Made by a program: the position numbers and the translations under genes
Source: Salinigranum marinum
Lineage (GTDB): Archaea; Halobacteriota; Halobacteria; Halobacteriales; Haloferacaceae
NCBI RefSeq assembly: GCF_024228675.1
Contig: NZ_CP100461.1
Location: 2,663,398 to 2,727,397, forward strand
DNA: 64,000 nucleotides
Reading direction: 5' to 3'
Part shown: positions 56,261 to 64,000 of the stretch, in pieces
How the letters are laid out: each line of letters starts with the position of its first letter
Position numbering within the stretch: the stretch's first letter is position 1
Notes under the pieces: generated by a model
Told to the model about the DNA's origin: nothing
The model's input: only the letters and a program-made list of their open reading frames with translations
Database searches by the model: none

Positions 56261-57097
56261 ATGACAAGGGGTGGCGACGACACGGCCGACATCCGCCGCC
56301 TGGTCGGACGCCGCGCCGAGACGCTGGCCGTCCTCGTCGGCGGGCGCTACGACAAGTCCGAGCTCACGGCCGAACTCGACGTCTCGCGGTCGACGATCGA
56401 CCGGACGATCCGCCGGCTCGAAGCGAGCGGGTTCGTCCGACGGGACGGGGGCGGGGTCACGGCGACGCTCGCTGGACGGCTGGCGCACGAGTCGTACCGT
56501 CGCTACTGCGACGAGACGGCCGACATCGCGCGCTTCGGCGACCTGCTCCGAGAGCTCTCACCGGCCGCGGATGTCGGCCACGAACTGCTCGACGGCGCGA
56601 CGGCCCACCGGAGCGAGCCGCCGGCGACGGGTCGGCCGGCGAACGAGGTGACCGCGCTCATCGGCGACGGGACAAGGCTCCGCGCCTGCGCCAGCGTCAT
56701 CAACGACGCCGCCGCGACGACGAAACTCCACGGGATGGTCACGGAGGAAGGCGGACGCGGATCGGTCGTCTACACGGAGGGCCTCGCGGACCACGTTCGA
56801 CGGCAGTACTTCCGAATGCACCACGAGATGATCGCGACCGACCGGTATCGCGCGTACGAGATCGCCGACCTGCCGTACGAACTCTTCCTCGTCGACACCG
56901 ACGACGGAACGCACGTCGTCGTGATGGTCTACGACGAAACCGGGACGCTCCGGGGGACGATCGTCAACGACACTGACGCGGCCGTCGCCTGGGGCGAGGC
57001 GGCGTTCGAACGCTACCGGGCGGCGGCGACCGAGTTCACCGACGACTTCCGGATCGGCGGGGACGGCGGCGACGGGGAGGACGATGAGAGCGAGTGA
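56261..57097 (+). CDS. FilR1-like transcriptional regulator, copy 1 of a tandem pair
   Basis: A 278-residue regulator: a winged HTH (LVGGRYDKSELTAELDVSRS, TIDRTIRRLEASGFVRRDGG, ~25-65) followed by a ~200-residue ligand-type domain (DIARFGDLLRELSPAADVGH, LVDTDDGTHVVVMVYDETG, GTIVNDTDAAVAWGEAAFER) characteristic of haloarchaeal FilR1-like regulators. It is strongly similar over its whole length to the gene at 57201-58037. AATATATACG lies ~27 bp upstream of the ATG, so this copy has its own strong promoter. Ligand and target are unknown. Confidence 0.8.
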   Translation: MTRGGDDTADIRRLVGRRAETLAVLVGGRYDKSELTAELDVSRSTIDRTIRRLEASGFVRRDGGGVTATLAGRLAHESYRRYCDETADIARFGDLLRELSPAADVGHELLDGATAHRSEPPATGRPANEVTALIGDGTRLRACASVINDAAATTKLHGMVTEEGGRGSVVYTEGLADHVRRQYFRMHHEMIATDRYRAYEIADLPYELFLVDTDDGTHVVVMVYDETGTLRGTIVNDTDAAVAWGEAAFERYRAAATEFTDDFRIGGDGGDGEDDESE

Positions 57098-57200: not shown

Positions 57201-58037
57201 ATGACGCCGGAAGACGACGCTGCGGCCGAACTCCGTCGCCTCGCCGATCAGCGAACCAACATGTTAGCGATGCTCGTCGAGGGCGGCTCCGACAAGTCCG
57301 GGCTCACCGCCGAACTCGGCGTCTCGCGGTCGACGGTCGACCGGGCCGTCCGTCGGCTCGAAGGGGCGGGGCTCGTCCGACGAGACCGGGGCGGGGTCAC
57401 GGCGACGCGCGCCGGACGGCTGGCGCACGAGTCGTACCGTCGCTACTGCGAGCGGACGGCCGACGTCGCACGCTTCGGCGATCTGCTCCGTGAACTCCCG
57501 GCGACGGCCGACGTCGGCCCCGAACTGCTCGACGGCGCGACGGCCCACCGGAGCGAACCGCCGGCGATGGGCCGGCCGGCGAACGAGGTGATCGAGCGCT
57601 TCGAACGGGCGACGAAGATGTGGATCTGCGCCAGCGCGATCAACGACGCCGAGGCGTCCGCACGGCTCCACGAGATGGTGACAGAGCGCGGCGGCTACGC
57701 GGACGTCGTCTACACGAGCAATCTCGCGTCCCACCTCCGCGAGTGGTACCTCGACAAGCGTCACGAGATGGCCGTCACCGGCCGGTACCGCGCCTACGAG
57801 ATCGACGACCTGTCGTACGACCTGTTCGTGATCGAATCACTGGACGGGACAGGAGTCGCCGTCGTCGTCTACGGCGACGGTGGCCGACTCGACGGCGTCA
57901 TCGTCAACGACACCGACGCGGCCGTCGCCTGGGGCAAAGAGGCGTTCGAGCGCCGCCGGTCGGCAGCGACGGAGTTCACCGACGACTTCCTCGCCGGCGG
58001 GAGCGACGCCGGTGCGGACGGCGACCGCGGCGGCTGA
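57201..58037 (+). CDS. FilR1-like transcriptional regulator, copy 2 of a tandem pair
   Basis: A 278-residue paralogue of the preceding gene, collinear from the HTH (LVEGGSDKSGLTAELGVSRS, TVDRAVRRLEGAGLVRRDRG) to the C-terminal VNDTDAAVAWGKEAFERRRS. It is the product of tandem duplication; identical stretches such as ELLDGATAHRSEPPA and LAHESYRRYC are retained, with divergence in the ligand region (residues ~130-180), suggesting different effectors. No strong TATA box is seen before its ATG, so it may be cotranscribed with copy 1 (103-bp gap). Confidence 0.8.
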   Translation: MTPEDDAAAELRRLADQRTNMLAMLVEGGSDKSGLTAELGVSRSTVDRAVRRLEGAGLVRRDRGGVTATRAGRLAHESYRRYCERTADVARFGDLLRELPATADVGPELLDGATAHRSEPPAMGRPANEVIERFERATKMWICASAINDAEASARLHEMVTERGGYADVVYTSNLASHLREWYLDKRHEMAVTGRYRAYEIDDLSYDLFVIESLDGTGVAVVVYGDGGRLDGVIVNDTDAAVAWGKEAFERRRSAATEFTDDFLAGGSDAGADGDRGG

Positions 58038-58705: not shown

Positions 58706-59407
58706 TCAGTCGTCCGCGGAGACGCGCTCGACCTCGTCGGGTTCGGCCGCGGCGGCTTCGGCCTCGCGGGCTTCCTTCTCCTCTTCTTCCTTCTTCGCCT
58801 TGATCTTCTTCAGCCGGAAGATCTCCTCGCGCTCTTGTTCTTCGAGCTTCTGCTCGATGTACTCCTTGTTCTCGTACAGGTCGGGGAGGAGCTTGAACTC
58901 CAGCGCGTTGACGCGGCGCTTCGTCGTCTCGATCTCCTCGAGCATCTTCTTCATCGCCGTCTCCACCTCGGCGGCGAGGATGATCGTCTCCAGCAGTTCC
59001 TCGTAAGCGTCGGCGGCCTCGTCGATCCGGGCGCTCGAACCCAGGAGACCGTAGCCACGCTGGTCGAGGCTCTTTTTGACCCGGGAGGACTCGATCTGCG
59101 GAACGACGACGCCCATGATGTTCTTCGACTGCGTCGTGATCTCGGGGTGCTCTTTGAGCGCCGCGGCGGCCCCACGGACCGCGACGTCGCCCTCCATGGC
59201 CCGCGCCATGTTGATCTTGTGTTGTGCGTTCTGGTAGTCGTCGGAGAGTTCGGAGCGGACGTCCTGCGCCTGGTCGAGGATGTCCATGAACTCCATGATG
59301 AGGCCGTCACGCTTCTGTTCGAGCGTGTCGTGACCGCGCTCGGAGAGCTCGATGCGGTCCTCGATGGCCATCAGATTCTTTCGCGTCGGTTTGACGTCTT
59401 CGGCCAT
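58706..59407 (-). CDS. atpD: A-type ATP synthase subunit D
   Basis: A 233-residue central-stalk subunit of the A1Ao ATP synthase. The N-terminus is typical: [40 protein letters not shown], a long coiled coil; the C-terminal half ([20 protein letters not shown]) is the second helix of the coil, followed by a haloarchaeal acidic tail. In other haloarchaea atpD follows atpB closely; here the lycopene cyclase, bacteriorhodopsin and bat genes lie between. A short spacer (36 bp) to the cyclase gene means readthrough transcription is likely. Confidence 0.96.
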
Positions 59408-59443: not shown

Positions 59444-60355
59444 TTACTGTCGTTCCCGGTCCTCCCGGCCGCGCCGCCCACTGCGAGTCGACCAACCGCG
59501 CCAGGGCCGCCCGGATCTCGGCGGCGACCCATCGGTGCGGAGGGCAGGTTCACGTCCCGGTGTCGCCGCCGAGACTGCGGCGTCGGCGGTGCGAGCGGGA
59601 GCCGAAGTGGAGGCGGGGGTCGTCCATCCCCACCGTTCGAGCACCCACAGGAACAAGAACAGTCCCTGCACCACGAACAGGTTCGTCACGACGAAGAACG
59701 CCGCCTCCTCGACCGGCAGGCCCAACAGCGCCACGCCGGTGGTGTACGTCTCGGAGATGACCCAGACGCCGAGTTCGATAGCGACCCGGTCGGCCACCCA
59801 GAGGTATAGGGTAGGGACGCCGACGCCGAGAGCGAGCGCTCGCCGAGTCGCCCACAGGACGGGCCAGCCGAACCCCCACTGGAGGGCGAGGACGGGACCT
59901 GCCCACGCGAGGATAGCGCCCAGGTAGTACGTCGGCGCGTCGCGGAGGAGCACGACCCCGACGAGGAGGACGACGCCGCCGGCGACGACGCCCACGAGTC
60001 GCTGGCGGCGCGTGACCGATACCGCCCCCGGGTTCGGCGGCGCGAGGAGCGAGACCCACAGCACGGCCAGGACCGGCTGGAGTAGCATGAACAGGTACTC
60101 CTCGACCGGTGCGAGCCAGACCGTGGCGACGACGGCACCGTCGCCGTACCACCAGACGCCGCGCTCGATGAGGTAGTTGTCCCACGGCGTCGTGTAGACG
60201 AGCGCGACGAGGGTGAGGAGCACCAGCCCGAGGCCACGGGCCCGCCACGCCGAGCGATCCAGTCGCGCCCGGCGACGCCAAGCGGCGACGGCGAGGACGA
60301 CCAGCGGGGGGACGACGAACACGGCGTGGAACGCGAGGTAGGTGAGGCGGGTCAC
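59444..60355 (-). CDS. crtY: Lycopene beta-cyclase (CrtYcd type) with unusual C-terminal extension
   Basis: A 303-residue membrane protein with about seven hydrophobic segments. Fused CrtYc/CrtYd motifs are visible: TTPWDNYLIERGVWWYGDG (57-61 PWDNY), APVEEYLFM (82-90) and LPVEEAAFFVV (213-223). It converts lycopene to beta-carotene, the precursor of retinal. The start is a GTG at 60355. Residues beyond ~245 form a hydrophilic, Pro/Ser/Arg-rich tail unlike the cyclase family, perhaps from loss of the original stop. It lies 88 bp after bop and 36 bp before atpD. Confidence 0.9.
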   Translation of the reverse strand: MTRLTYLAFHAVFVVPPLVVLAVAAWRRRARLDRSAWRARGLGLVLLTLVALVYTTPWDNYLIERGVWWYGDGAVVATVWLAPVEEYLFMLLQPVLAVLWVSLLAPPNPGAVSVTRRQRLVGVVAGGVVLLVGVVLLRDAPTYYLGAILAWAGPVLALQWGFGWPVLWATRRALALGVGVPTLYLWVADRVAIELGVWVISETYTTGVALLGLPVEEAAFFVVTNLFVVQGLFLFLWVLERWGWTTPASTSAPARTADAAVSAATPGREPALRTDGSPPRSGRPWRGWSTRSGRRGREDRERQ

Positions 60356-60443: not shown

Positions 60444-61178
60444 TCAGTCGGCCGTCGGTGCCGCACCGGTCGGCTGGGTGGCCGCCTCCAAGACGGAGTG
60501 GCTCCGCAGGAGGATGAACCCGAAGCCGACCTTCGCGGTCAGGTCGAGCACCATGAACGCCGCCGTCTCCCAGTACAGGGGGATGATACCGATGGTGCCC
60601 TCGGTGCCGAGGATCCACACGATGGGGTACGCCAGCCAGAGCACGATGAGCAGGTTCCGAAGCGTGCTGGTCAGCTTCCGGACCTCCGGCGTCTGCCTCG
60701 TCGCAGCCTCGTTGAGCGCGCGGATGAGGAAGTAGAGGAGGAACAGCAGGAACACCGTGCTGATCGCCCACCAGACGATCCGGACGGTGGCCGACGAAGC
60801 GGCGAGGGCGCCGATGACGCCCGTCCCGATCATCAACACGTCGAGGCCGACGAGCGTGTAGATCGTGTTCTTACTCGCACGCGCTAACAGCGCGAGGTCC
60901 AACAGGAGGAGCGGCGTCGTGAACAGCCAGTCGGCGTACCGGCCCCAGTAGATGTCGAGCACCTGCCCGTTGACCGTTACCTGGGTGAGTCCGAAGCCCG
61001 TCGCCATCGCGAAGTACGCCGCGGAGGCGATGGCGGTGATGAAGATGGTGATGATGTAAAACCGCTGCTGTTCGGGGTCGTCGACGCCCCACCCGCGGGC
61101 GACGAAGTAGAGCGTCCCGAGTGTCATCCCGGCGGTACCGAGCCACAGCCAGATGGATTCACTGCCTGGAGTTGCCAT
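60444..61178 (-). CDS. bop: Bacteriorhodopsin
   Basis: A 244-residue seven-helix light-driven proton pump. All functional residues are present at or near bacteriorhodopsin numbering: R80 (R82), D83 and D94 in GRYADWLFTTPLLLLDLALL (D85 proton acceptor and D96 donor), D113 (D115), E193 and E204 (release group), D212 and the retinal Schiff-base K216 in FMVLDLTAKVGFGFILLRS. The D85/D96 pair marks a pump, not a halorhodopsin or sensory rhodopsin. The start at 61178 follows CGTTATGC ~29 bp upstream. It is flanked by bat (upstream) and crtY (downstream). Confidence 0.97.
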   Translation of the reverse strand: MATPGSESIWLWLGTAGMTLGTLYFVARGWGVDDPEQQRFYIITIFITAIASAAYFAMATGFGLTQVTVNGQVLDIYWGRYADWLFTTPLLLLDLALLARASKNTIYTLVGLDVLMIGTGVIGALAASSATVRIVWWAISTVFLLFLLYFLIRALNEAATRQTPEVRKLTSTLRNLLIVLWLAYPIVWILGTEGTIGIIPLYWETAAFMVLDLTAKVGFGFILLRSHSVLEAATQPTGAAPTAD

Positions 61179-61203: not shown

Positions 61204-61211
61204 GGCATAAC
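61204..61211 (-). promoter_or_regulatory. bop: Core promoter of bop
   Basis: CGTTATGC on the minus strand is centred ~29 bp before the bop ATG, a weak TATA box that fits an activator-dependent promoter as in Halobacterium bop, where expression requires Bat and a UAS. The palindrome at 61238-61261 lies just upstream. Confidence 0.55.
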
Positions 61212-61237
61212 GCGAATACCGAACTAGTTGGGATGTC

Positions 61238-61261
61238 CTAAGTGACCTATAACGTCCTTAG
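61238..61261 (-). promoter_or_regulatory. Palindrome upstream of bop, candidate activator (UAS) site
   Basis: On the minus strand the block begins CTAAGGAC and ends GTCACTTAG around a GTTATAG centre, so both ends read CTAAG inward with a GAC/GTC inner pair (one unpaired base). It lies 60-83 bp before the bop ATG, upstream of the TATA box, where the Bat-dependent UAS of bop lies in Halobacterium. It overlaps the bat stop codon (TAA). Confidence 0.5.
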
Positions 61262-63246
61262 ATTGACGAGGGGTCTCCTCGGTGGAAGCGCGAGACGAGT
61301 TTCTTCTCGGCGGCGCGGAGGTGCTGGTGGAACGTCGACCGCGAGACGCCCATCGCGTCGGCGAGTTCGTCCCCGGAGATGCCGTGTGGCCACTCGAAGA
61401 AGCCGCCGACGTGGGCGAGTTGGAGCGCGGTACGCTGTTTCTCCGTCAGGTCGTCCTCGACGCGGGCGACGAACCCACGGTGGGTCGCCGGCGGGGCGTC
61501 GCGTTCGCGGATGCGTGCGACCCGGACGCTGGACGAGACGCCCTCGAGGTCGTCGAGCAGCGCCCGTCCCGTCGACCGGTCGGCGACCGTGACGGTGAGC
61601 GTGAGCGACCGCTCCTGTGAGTCAACCGAGAGGTCGGTCAGCCGGCCGCCCGCCTCGGCGACCAGCGCGAGGAGCGACTGTGGCGGGAGCGCCACCTCGA
61701 ACAGCCCGGCGTCGACGTCGTCACCGACCCGCCGGACGTCGTCGATCCCAGTGTCCGCGACGGCGGCGAGGTCGGCCGTCGGCGGAGTCGCCGAGACGAA
61801 AAGCAGGATGGTGCCGTCGTCGCGGACGACGACGCCCTCGGAGGTGAGCGAGCAGTCCGTCGCGGCCGCCAGACGGACCAGCGGCACGTCCGGATCGTCG
61901 ACGACGACCCGGAGTTCGACGACGCTCTCGGTCAGGAGCGTCCGTCGGCTCTCGAACGCGTCGATCGCCGCGCCGATCGCCCGCCCGAGCGTCCCGAGCA
62001 CGACGAGTTCGTGGTCCTCGACGGTCTCGTCAGTGTAGACCACCAACACGCCGTAGAGCGTGTCGCGGTGGAGCAGCGGGACGGCGACGAGTCCTTCGAA
62101 CGGGAGCGTCACGCCGGCGTGAAAGCCACCGTCGGCGTCGGTCGCCTCCTCGGGCGTCCGCGTCGAGACCGCCCGCGCGACCGGGTCGGCCGCGTCGTCG
62201 CGGTCGATCACGAGACCGTCGACCACGTCCGCGTCGTCGCCGGCCCACACCTTCGGAACGACCGTGTCGGGCGAGAGATCGCAGTCGCCGACCCACGCAC
62301 AGGCGTACGACGGCGCGGCCGCGACGCGCTCGCAGACGCCCTGTTCGAGCGCCGACCGGCTCTCCGCCCGGACGAGGACGCCGGTGACGTCTTCGAGGAC
62401 CCCCTCGATGTTGTCGAGGAGCCGCTGGAGCCGCCCGCGCTCGCGGTCGGCCTCGGCGGCGTACCGTTCGGCCGCCTCCTCGGCGCGGACCCGCGCCGTG
62501 ATGTCCGTCTGGAACCCGACGTAGTGGGTCACCTCTCCGGCAGCGTTCTCGATCGGGGCGATGTCGACCCGATTCCAGAACTCCGTCCCGTCGCGGCGGT
62601 AGTTCAGGAGTTCGACCGACGTCGACTCGCCGGCGTCGACGGCGCGACGGAGTTCGGCGACCGACTCGGGATCCGTGTCGGGACCCTGCAGGTAGCGGCA
62701 GTTGCGGCCGAGCGCCTCCGAGACGCTGTAGCCGGTCGTCTCGCAGAACGCCCGGTTGACGTAAACGAGCGGCCGGTCGGGCAGCGAGAAGTCGGCGATT
62801 GTGATGCCGACGGGGGCCTCGTCCATGGCGCGCTCTTTCAGCTCCTCGGTGATCCGGCTGACCGCCGCCGGTCGACGCTGTTGCCAGGTTACCACGCTGG
62901 CGACCCGTTCGCCGAGCCGGGCGAACCGGTTCGACCCGTCGACGGGGACGACGTCGGCCACGCCGGCCTCGAACACCTCGTCGGTCGCGTAGCCGCTCTC
63001 GGGTGGCAACAGCACGACGACCGGCGGGGCCGTCGCCTGCGCGAGGCGAGCGAGCGCGCCGTCGAAGAGGTCGATGGATACGATCAGACAGTCGACGCCC
63101 TCCGCCGCGACGGCGTCGTCGACCGTGTCGACGGTGACGACGCCGTCCCCGCCGAACGCGTCCGCGAGGAGCGCGCCCGCACGCGACCGGAGCGCGTCGT
63201 CGCCGGTGGCGAGGAGCACACGGCTCCCACGAGGGACCTCGGTCAT
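61258..63246 (-). CDS. bat: Bacterio-opsin activator Bat with LOV-like PAS domain
   Basis: A 662-residue regulator: a receiver-like N-terminal domain (~8-125, no confident phosphoacceptor), a PAS domain (~140-255), a GAF-like domain (~275-430), and a C-terminal HTH_10 (LTEKQRTALQLAHVGGFFEW, ISGDELADAMGVSRSTFHQH, ~600-655). The PAS core contains GRNCRYLQGPDTDP (residues 180-193), which matches the LOV photoreceptor signature GxNCRFLQ with the photoactive Cys (C183), and NYRRDGTEFWN and a final VGFQTD carry further LOV residues. So blue-light or FMN/redox sensing is inferred. It is upstream of bop on the same strand and follows atpB by 125 bp. Confidence 0.93.
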   Translation of the reverse strand: MTEVPRGSRVLLATGDDALRSRAGALLADAFGGDGVVTVDTVDDAVAAEGVDCLIVSIDLFDGALARLAQATAPPVVVLLPPESGYATDEVFEAGVADVVPVDGSNRFARLGERVASVVTWQQRRPAAVSRITEELKERAMDEAPVGITIADFSLPDRPLVYVNRAFCETTGYSVSEALGRNCRYLQGPDTDPESVAELRRAVDAGESTSVELLNYRRDGTEFWNRVDIAPIENAAGEVTHYVGFQTDITARVRAEEAAERYAAEADRERGRLQRLLDNIEGVLEDVTGVLVRAESRSALEQGVCERVAAAPSYACAWVGDCDLSPDTVVPKVWAGDDADVVDGLVIDRDDAADPVARAVSTRTPEEATDADGGFHAGVTLPFEGLVAVPLLHRDTLYGVLVVYTDETVEDHELVVLGTLGRAIGAAIDAFESRRTLLTESVVELRVVVDDPDVPLVRLAAATDCSLTSEGVVVRDDGTILLFVSATPPTADLAAVADTGIDDVRRVGDDVDAGLFEVALPPQSLLALVAEAGGRLTDLSVDSQERSLTLTVTVADRSTGRALLDDLEGVSSSVRVARIRERDAPPATHRGFVARVEDDLTEKQRTALQLAHVGGFFEWPHGISGDELADAMGVSRSTFHQHLRAAEKKLVSRFHRGDPSSI

Positions 63247-63371: not shown

Positions 63372-64000
63372 TTACGCCTCGGCCTCGACCGCTTCGCTCG
63401 TCTCGTCGTCGCGGTAGTGCTGCTCGATGAGTTCCTCGTCGATCCGGTTGAGTTCCTCCTTCGGCAGCATCGACAGCAGGTCCCAGCCGATGTCGAGCGT
63501 CTCGTCGATGGAGCGCTCCGTGGTAAAGCCCTGGTCGACGAACTCGTCCTCGAAGCGCTCGGCGAAGTCGAGGTACTTGTTGTCTCGCTCGGAGAGGGCC
63601 TCGCGACCGACGATGTTCACCAGGTCGCGGAGGTCCTCGCCCTCGGCGTACGCGGCGTACATCTGGTCGGAGACGTCGGCGTGGTCGGCGCGGGTGAGCC
63701 CCTCGCCGATCCCGTCGTCCATGAGCCGCGACAGCGACGGCAGTACGTTGACCGGGGGCTGGACGCCCTGGCTGTTGAGGTCGCGGTCGACGTAGATCTG
63801 CCCCTCGGTAATGTACCCCGTCAGGTCGGGGATCGGGTGGGTGTCGTCGTCGCCCGGCATCGTGAGGATCGGGATCTGGGTCACCGACCCCTCGCGGCCC
63901 TCGATCCGGCCGGCGCGCTCGTACAGCTGGGCCAGGTCGGTGTACATGTACCCGGGGTAGCCCCGGCGACCCGGGACCTCCTCGCGGGCGGCACCGATCT
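63372..64000 (-). CDS. atpB: A-type ATP synthase subunit B, C-terminal part
   Basis: The 5' part of this gene lies beyond the end of the window; the frame remains open to base 64000 ([20 protein letters not shown] is read at the edge). The visible ~209 residues include [36 protein letters not shown] and [16 protein letters not shown], the conserved region of the regulatory B subunit of the A1 head. It is followed 125 bp later by bat rather than by atpD, which lies 4 kb further on. Confidence 0.96.

Follow-up and report, generated by a model that had tools for sequence, protein, structure and literature searches.

We have found that the bacterio-opsin activator Bat encoded in the analysed window, a stretch of 64,000 nucleotides of the Salinigranum marinum genome, carries, as judged from its sequence, a complete LOV domain including the cysteine of the flavin adduct. 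As this domain sits in a DNA-binding protein, blue light could therefore switch on the proton pump gene bop directly. We consider it probable, at roughly two chances in three, that Bat works as a one-component receptor of blue light which activates transcription of the neighbouring bop as its dedicated target.

The bat gene lies on the reverse strand, and a gene on the forward strand of the same interval is ruled out by stop codons. The architecture expected of a Bat protein in Pfam, PAS-GAF-BAT-HTH_10, is present. The gene and its parts are as follows, where the full-length model (pTM 0.37) served for secondary structure and domain limits only.

61258-63246, reverse strand: bat, 662 aa with no internal stop, encoding a degenerate receiver, LOV, helix, GAF, BAT and HTH_10
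62893-63225, reverse strand: receiver-like N-terminal domain, residues 8-118, with alternating strands and helices in the model
62497-62844, reverse strand: LOV domain, residues 135-250, from the Pfam PAS match (137-252), PDB matches and the model
62368-62499, reverse strand: long signalling helix behind the LOV domain, about residues 250-293, from DSSP of the models
61957-62358, reverse strand: GAF domain, about residues 297-430 (Pfam PF01590, match 324-428)
61471-61929, reverse strand: BAT domain PF15915, residues 440-592 (Pfam E 2.7e-27)
61294-61449, reverse strand: HTH_10 DNA-binding domain PF04967, residues 600-651 (Pfam E 2.2e-20)

For the N-terminus, the Pfam search gave no Response_reg match, and the position of the usual phosphoacceptor Asp appears, read by eye, to be a Ser.

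A preliminary description of this DNA had claimed a full LOV photoreceptor signature in Bat, and the translation bears it out exactly. The motif GRNCRYLQ occupies residues 180-187 (62686-62709, reverse strand), with the codon of C183 at 62698-62700. The Asn-rich strand NYRRDGTEFWN and the terminal Gln in VGFQTD, also named there, are found at residues 215-225 and 243-248, and C183, N215, N225 and Q246 are all in register with LOV domains. Among the ten LOV-conserved residues listed by Yee et al. (PMC4682037, YtvA numbering), nine are identical in Bat; in place of the tenth, the Phe of RFLQ, there is Tyr185. The canonical archaeal LOV domain ALovD-1 shows this Phe-to-Tyr change too, and a photocycle has been demonstrated for it in 3 M salt (PMC12202551).

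In the phmmer search against the PDB, the LOV part of Bat matches LOV domains of solved structure with E values from 1.3e-36 to about 1e-25, and every one of the best 60 matches is LOV or LOV-derived. The NCBIfam models of YtvA, the blue-light histidine kinase and NifL (a redox PAS) give 147, 133 and 65 bits, respectively, as partial matches under the whole-protein cut-offs of these models. We have also predicted the structure of the domain from 38 archaeal LOV sequences, with a pLDDT of 93–97 in the core. The top Foldseek match of this model is the LOV domain of Meiothermus ruber (TM 0.95 by target length, rmsd 0.9, E 2e-16), and the top 50 are LOV domains without exception. Since the entire domain matches LOV profiles and structures, a chance occurrence of GRNCRYLQ is ruled out.

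The preliminary description had left the alignment of the FMN contacts to be done, and we have made it against AsLOV2, with a reference sequence 100% identical to PDB 2v1a. All the six polar FMN contacts of AsLOV2 (R451, Q454, R467, N482, N492 and Q513) are present, as Bat R184, Q187, R200, N215, N225 and Q246. The pocket differs from that of AsLOV2 at N414 (G147 in Bat), T418 (A151), N425 (R158), F452 (Y185), F494 (V227), L496 (I229), F509 (Y242) and V512 (F245). A Tyr close to the flavin is able to quench it. The marks of the Cys-less redox type, i.e., no Cys at the adduct site and a Trp near the flavin, are both lacking: Bat has C183, and its residue 167 is a Phe, at the place of the quenching Trp of the Cys-less BAT-LOV* (W172, PMC4682037). 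The hedged reading in the preliminary description, that Bat may sense blue light or the redox state of a flavin, thus survives the alignment.

The LOV and HTH domains are the best-conserved parts of Bat and the N-terminal domain is the least conserved one: identity to the nearest genera outside Salinigranum, Haloferax included, is 76–79% for LOV, 75–91% for HTH, and 36–45% for the N-terminal domain. This conservation bears on the idea that the LOV domain is a relic which has lost flavin binding or signalling, with Bat responding through GAF. A GAF domain is indeed present and several pocket positions are unusual, but a relic should hardly rank among the best-conserved parts of the protein with all its polar FMN contacts persisting, and flavin binding is retained even in the relative lacking the Cys (PMC4682037). 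We regard a relic as very improbable.

The neighbourhood of bat ties it to the pump gene. The order is atpB, bat, bop, crtY, atpD, all on the reverse strand, with 125 bp between atpB and bat.

63372-63998, reverse strand: atpB, 3' part, A-type ATP synthase subunit B; the window end cuts the gene
61219-61232, no strand assigned: palindrome CCCAACTAGTTCGG, predicted Bat operator (UAS) of bop, from spacing and conservation in relatives
60444-61178, reverse strand: bop, bacteriorhodopsin-type proton pump; probable start 61178, longest ORF from 61208
59444-60355, reverse strand: crtY, lycopene cyclase for the retinal precursor (Pfam PF18916)
58706-59407, reverse strand: atpD, A-type ATP synthase subunit D (Pfam PF01813)

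The best PDB match of the bop product is deltarhodopsin 4fbz (2.8e-99), and it has the RYADWLFTTPLLLLDL helix, which carries both Asp residues of the proton relay. From the end of bat to the bop ATG there are 79 bp, and this adjacency on the same strand is kept in Salinigranum and many other genera. Verma et al. 2020 (PMC7755889) have already reported bop and bat inserted between atpB and atpD, as well as bat there without bop, and Sharma et al. 2007 (PMC1885257) a bop beside ATPase genes. In their passages on this locus, both papers leave LOV and the Cys unmentioned and the role of bat open.

Two further observations concern the surroundings. A second bacteriorhodopsin-like gene exists in the genome (L145, G000:C1:3189836-3190576), which is 70% identical to the window bop and adjoins brp/blh- and crtY-like genes; neither a Bat nor the palindrome was found around it. 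In the window, 56261-57097 and 57201-58037 encode a tandem pair of clearly related 278-aa winged-helix-like regulators.

The probable bop ATG follows 41 bp downstream of the palindrome CCCAACTAGTTCGG; in relatives, the palindrome is found mostly 38–46 bp before the Met corresponding to the bop start. As this operator-to-Met spacing is constant across relatives, the real start of bop is probably at 61178, i.e., Met11 of the longest ORF, while the ORF start at 61208, 10 codons upstream, would fall within the promoter. With at most one mismatch, the palindrome is found at 36 of the 59 bop genes adjoining a Cys-type Bat, and with at most two mismatches at 53 of the 59, counts which are not independent because the surveyed loci are related; shuffled versions of the same upstream stretches give 0/3520 and 18/3520, respectively. 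The perfect palindrome occurs three times in the 4.9-Mb genome by pattern search, and its reversed control does not occur. In each of the six bat-bop relatives examined, one or two perfect copies are present. The preliminary description had also linked Bat to production of the pump, and bop as its target is supported by the gene order and by this conserved operator directly upstream. The palindrome pattern agrees with the bop UAS of H. salinarum, ACCcnactagTTnG; this agreement serves as a lead only.

From the domain make-up, the LOV fold and pocket, the conservation, the gene order and the conserved operator, all shown above, the following route can be proposed. By established LOV chemistry, the LOV domain should bind FMN, and blue light would form the adduct between C183 and the flavin, leading to N5 protonation and a flip of Q246. 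The signal would then pass through the helix behind the LOV domain (about residues 250-293), in the way known for LOV proteins, to the GAF/BAT part and on to HTH_10, which is predicted to contact the palindrome at 61219-61232. As a result, bop, and perhaps crtY too, would be turned on from a weak promoter within the atp operon. That Bat activates bop is suggested by the genetics of H. salinarum Bat (PMC3184054, PMC2253796), and we likewise infer the direction of the light effect and a control by light in vivo. When oxygen is low, this flavin could also signal its own reduction, so both light and redox may be inputs, and low oxygen may act via the LOV flavin or the GAF domain.

To see how the Cys is distributed, we have searched the genomes of the family (171) and of the class (292) for Bat and bop, and examined 160 stretches, almost all of them with a bop gene at the centre. 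After identical sequences were removed, 126 Bat-like proteins were scored; the labels Halorubrum, Halobacterium, Haloferax and Salinigranum in this survey are inferred from sequence matches to named records. The adduct Cys is present in all the 61 non-redundant Bats of the atp operon (45 with bop and 16 without). Beside bop genes outside the atp operon, 19 Bats have Cys, 9 have His, and 17 have Pro, and those at Halobacterium- or Halorubrum-type bop clusters are mostly of the His or Pro type. The Pro type is found at the Halorubrum-type bop clusters (genus code g22) together with Trp at position 167, a pair present in every Pro-type bop-linked Bat surveyed; it reproduces BAT-LOV* of Yee et al. 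(P188 and W172; PMC4682037). The His type includes a Halobacterium-like genome (L301) with a bop almost identical to H. salinarum bacteriorhodopsin, a Bat motif that reads GANHRFLQ, and a brp-bat pair divergent from bop. This is consistent with the published absence of the Cys in H. salinarum Bat (PMC4844311). At the Cys-less loci the palindrome is diverged and lies further upstream, as CCTGACTGGGTTGG near -78 for the Pro type and CCGTACTGTTTGGG near -88 for the His type. In five genomes (G017, G048, G071, G072 and G077), a Cys-Bat and a His-Bat exist together, each near its own bop.

This distribution also weighs on the view that Bat is mainly a redox or oxygen sensor working through its flavin, like the role proposed for the Cys-less BAT-LOV*, where the Cys is merely inherited and light has little weight in the cell. 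The classical induction of bop is by low oxygen, the Halorubrum BAT-LOV* changes conformation upon flavin reduction (PMC4682037), and Q246 and the flavin pocket would suit either role. However, a redox sensor needs no Cys, while the Cys is kept in 61 of 61 atp-linked Bats and the Cys-less forms are limited to other clades and loci. Overall, a mainly redox-sensing Bat seems unlikely for this locus. Adduct chemistry is, all the same, not required for bop control in general, because the best-studied Bats are Cys-less and serve the same pump.

Based on the survey, we tentatively suggest, at somewhat less than even odds, that haloarchaea own two kinds of pump activator: a Cys Bat of the light-adduct type at bop genes mostly in the ATP-synthase operon, and a redox Bat with His or Pro at the bop clusters of the brp type, with a separate operator variant for each kind. 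Both would operate side by side in some species, placing the same pump separately under light and redox command, and the Cys-less form may stem from loss of the Cys.

The question of loss or gain was approached by a tree of the Bat part C-terminal to the LOV domain, rooted via paralogues; four histidine-kinase-like rows of the first tree (L078, L084, L088 and L089) are false Bats and were left out of the second. The His Bats form one clade (support 99–100), nested in a fully supported clade that otherwise consists of Cys Bats; a separate clade (100), on a long branch, holds the Pro Bats. A single joint origin of the His and Pro Bats is not rejected by the AU test (p 0.25). In the simplest reading, the Cys would have been lost, once or twice; since the root depends on paralogues, a gain is also conceivable. 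Loss is the opposite of the possibility raised in Yee 2015, in which the redox LOV came first.

Haloferax presents a special case. There, bat is located between atpB and atpD and keeps the GRNCRYLQ motif, and bop is not linked to it (L106-L120, L022 and L023). In 14 of the 15 Haloferax genomes no bop-like match was found, the exception being G033 with a bop elsewhere, and the 14 Haloferax genomes searched for the perfect palindrome have none. The Haloferax Bat is 76–78% identical to the window Bat in LOV and 48–51% in the BAT domain. With a Cys-Bat and neither a linked bop nor the palindrome, Bat should therefore have another job at least there, and the photoreceptor appears to have been kept for another target.

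This raises the alternative that the LOV photoreceptor works, and that its main output is the ATP synthase operon or other genes, with the link to bop being secondary. Besides the Haloferax gene, which stays between atpB and atpD, a second perfect palindrome of the S. marinum genome would fit such an output: CCCAACTAGTTGGG (L306/L308, G000:C1:3016735-3016748; counterparts L315, L316 and L317) is kept in four of the four Salinigranum genomes examined, and precedes genes for a zinc-finger protein of 50 aa (CxxC...CPNC; DUF7563) and an Lrp-like metal regulator. This site could mark a second target of Bat; Brz of H. salinarum is likewise a small zinc-finger protein. But where bop exists, the operator is directly upstream of it at a fixed spacing, and within the window the search upstream of bat, crtY and atpD gave no operator-like site. 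We regard a main output other than bop as quite improbable. The third perfect palindrome (L307/L309, G000:C1:3936027-3936040) lies some 100 bp in front of a gene of the HIT family and is absent from the other Salinigranum genomes examined.

Previous studies have described several related systems. BAT-LOV* of Halorubrum hochstenium (Yee et al. 2015, PMC4682037) shares the receiver, LOV, GAF and HTH parts, a flavin-binding LOV fold and the control of bacteriorhodopsin, but has Pro188 and the flavin-quenching Trp172 where the Salinigranum Bat has Cys183 and Phe167, and its locus differs. The Bat was proposed there as a light/redox sensor, and a direct light response was suggested but not established. 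The H. salinarum Bat is alike as a bop activator with PAS, GAF and HTH_10 and an operator upstream of bop, but lacks the LOV Cys (PMC4844311). Losi and Gaertner 2014 (PMC4844311) list archaeal LOV-HTH proteins like Bat, of the same class with (RR/GAF/PAS)+LOV+nPAS+kGAF+HTH, as putative light-regulated DNA-binding proteins; as far as their catalogue goes, it comes without a link to the bop locus, an operator or a tested member. Unlike that of Salinigranum, the Bats in these two accounts are without Cys, and they probably respond to redox instead. The bacterial EL222 is also a one-component LOV and HTH protein with light-dependent DNA binding, but it is short, with the HTH right behind the LOV (general knowledge and PMC4844311), whereas the Salinigranum Bat has GAF and BAT in between.

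Archaeal LOV-HTH proteins, a redox/light-sensing role of the Cys-less BAT-LOV*, and the location of bop/bat within the atp operon have been published already. What is added here is the division of Bats with and without the Cys by bop locus, the genomes with both, the fixed operator of the Cys type, and the orphan Bat of Haloferax; we found no published report of the split by locus or of the paired operator. The earlier biochemistry we found is on Cys-less Bat, while in the Salinigranum locus and many relatives a Bat with an intact LOV site comes with a defined operator and a pump gene of its own, by which direct light sensing by Bat becomes simple to test. In addition, where a genome has both Bat kinds, control by light can be set against control by redox within a single cell, and a natural salt-tolerant LOV activator is a candidate optogenetic tool for archaea.

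Apart from Bat, the genome has at least four further Cys-bearing LOV domains, in other sensor proteins (L002, L003, L005 and L008), and a broken LOV-like gene (L013, G000:C1:1921136-1921516) with two stops and Pro for Cys (GENPRLLQ).
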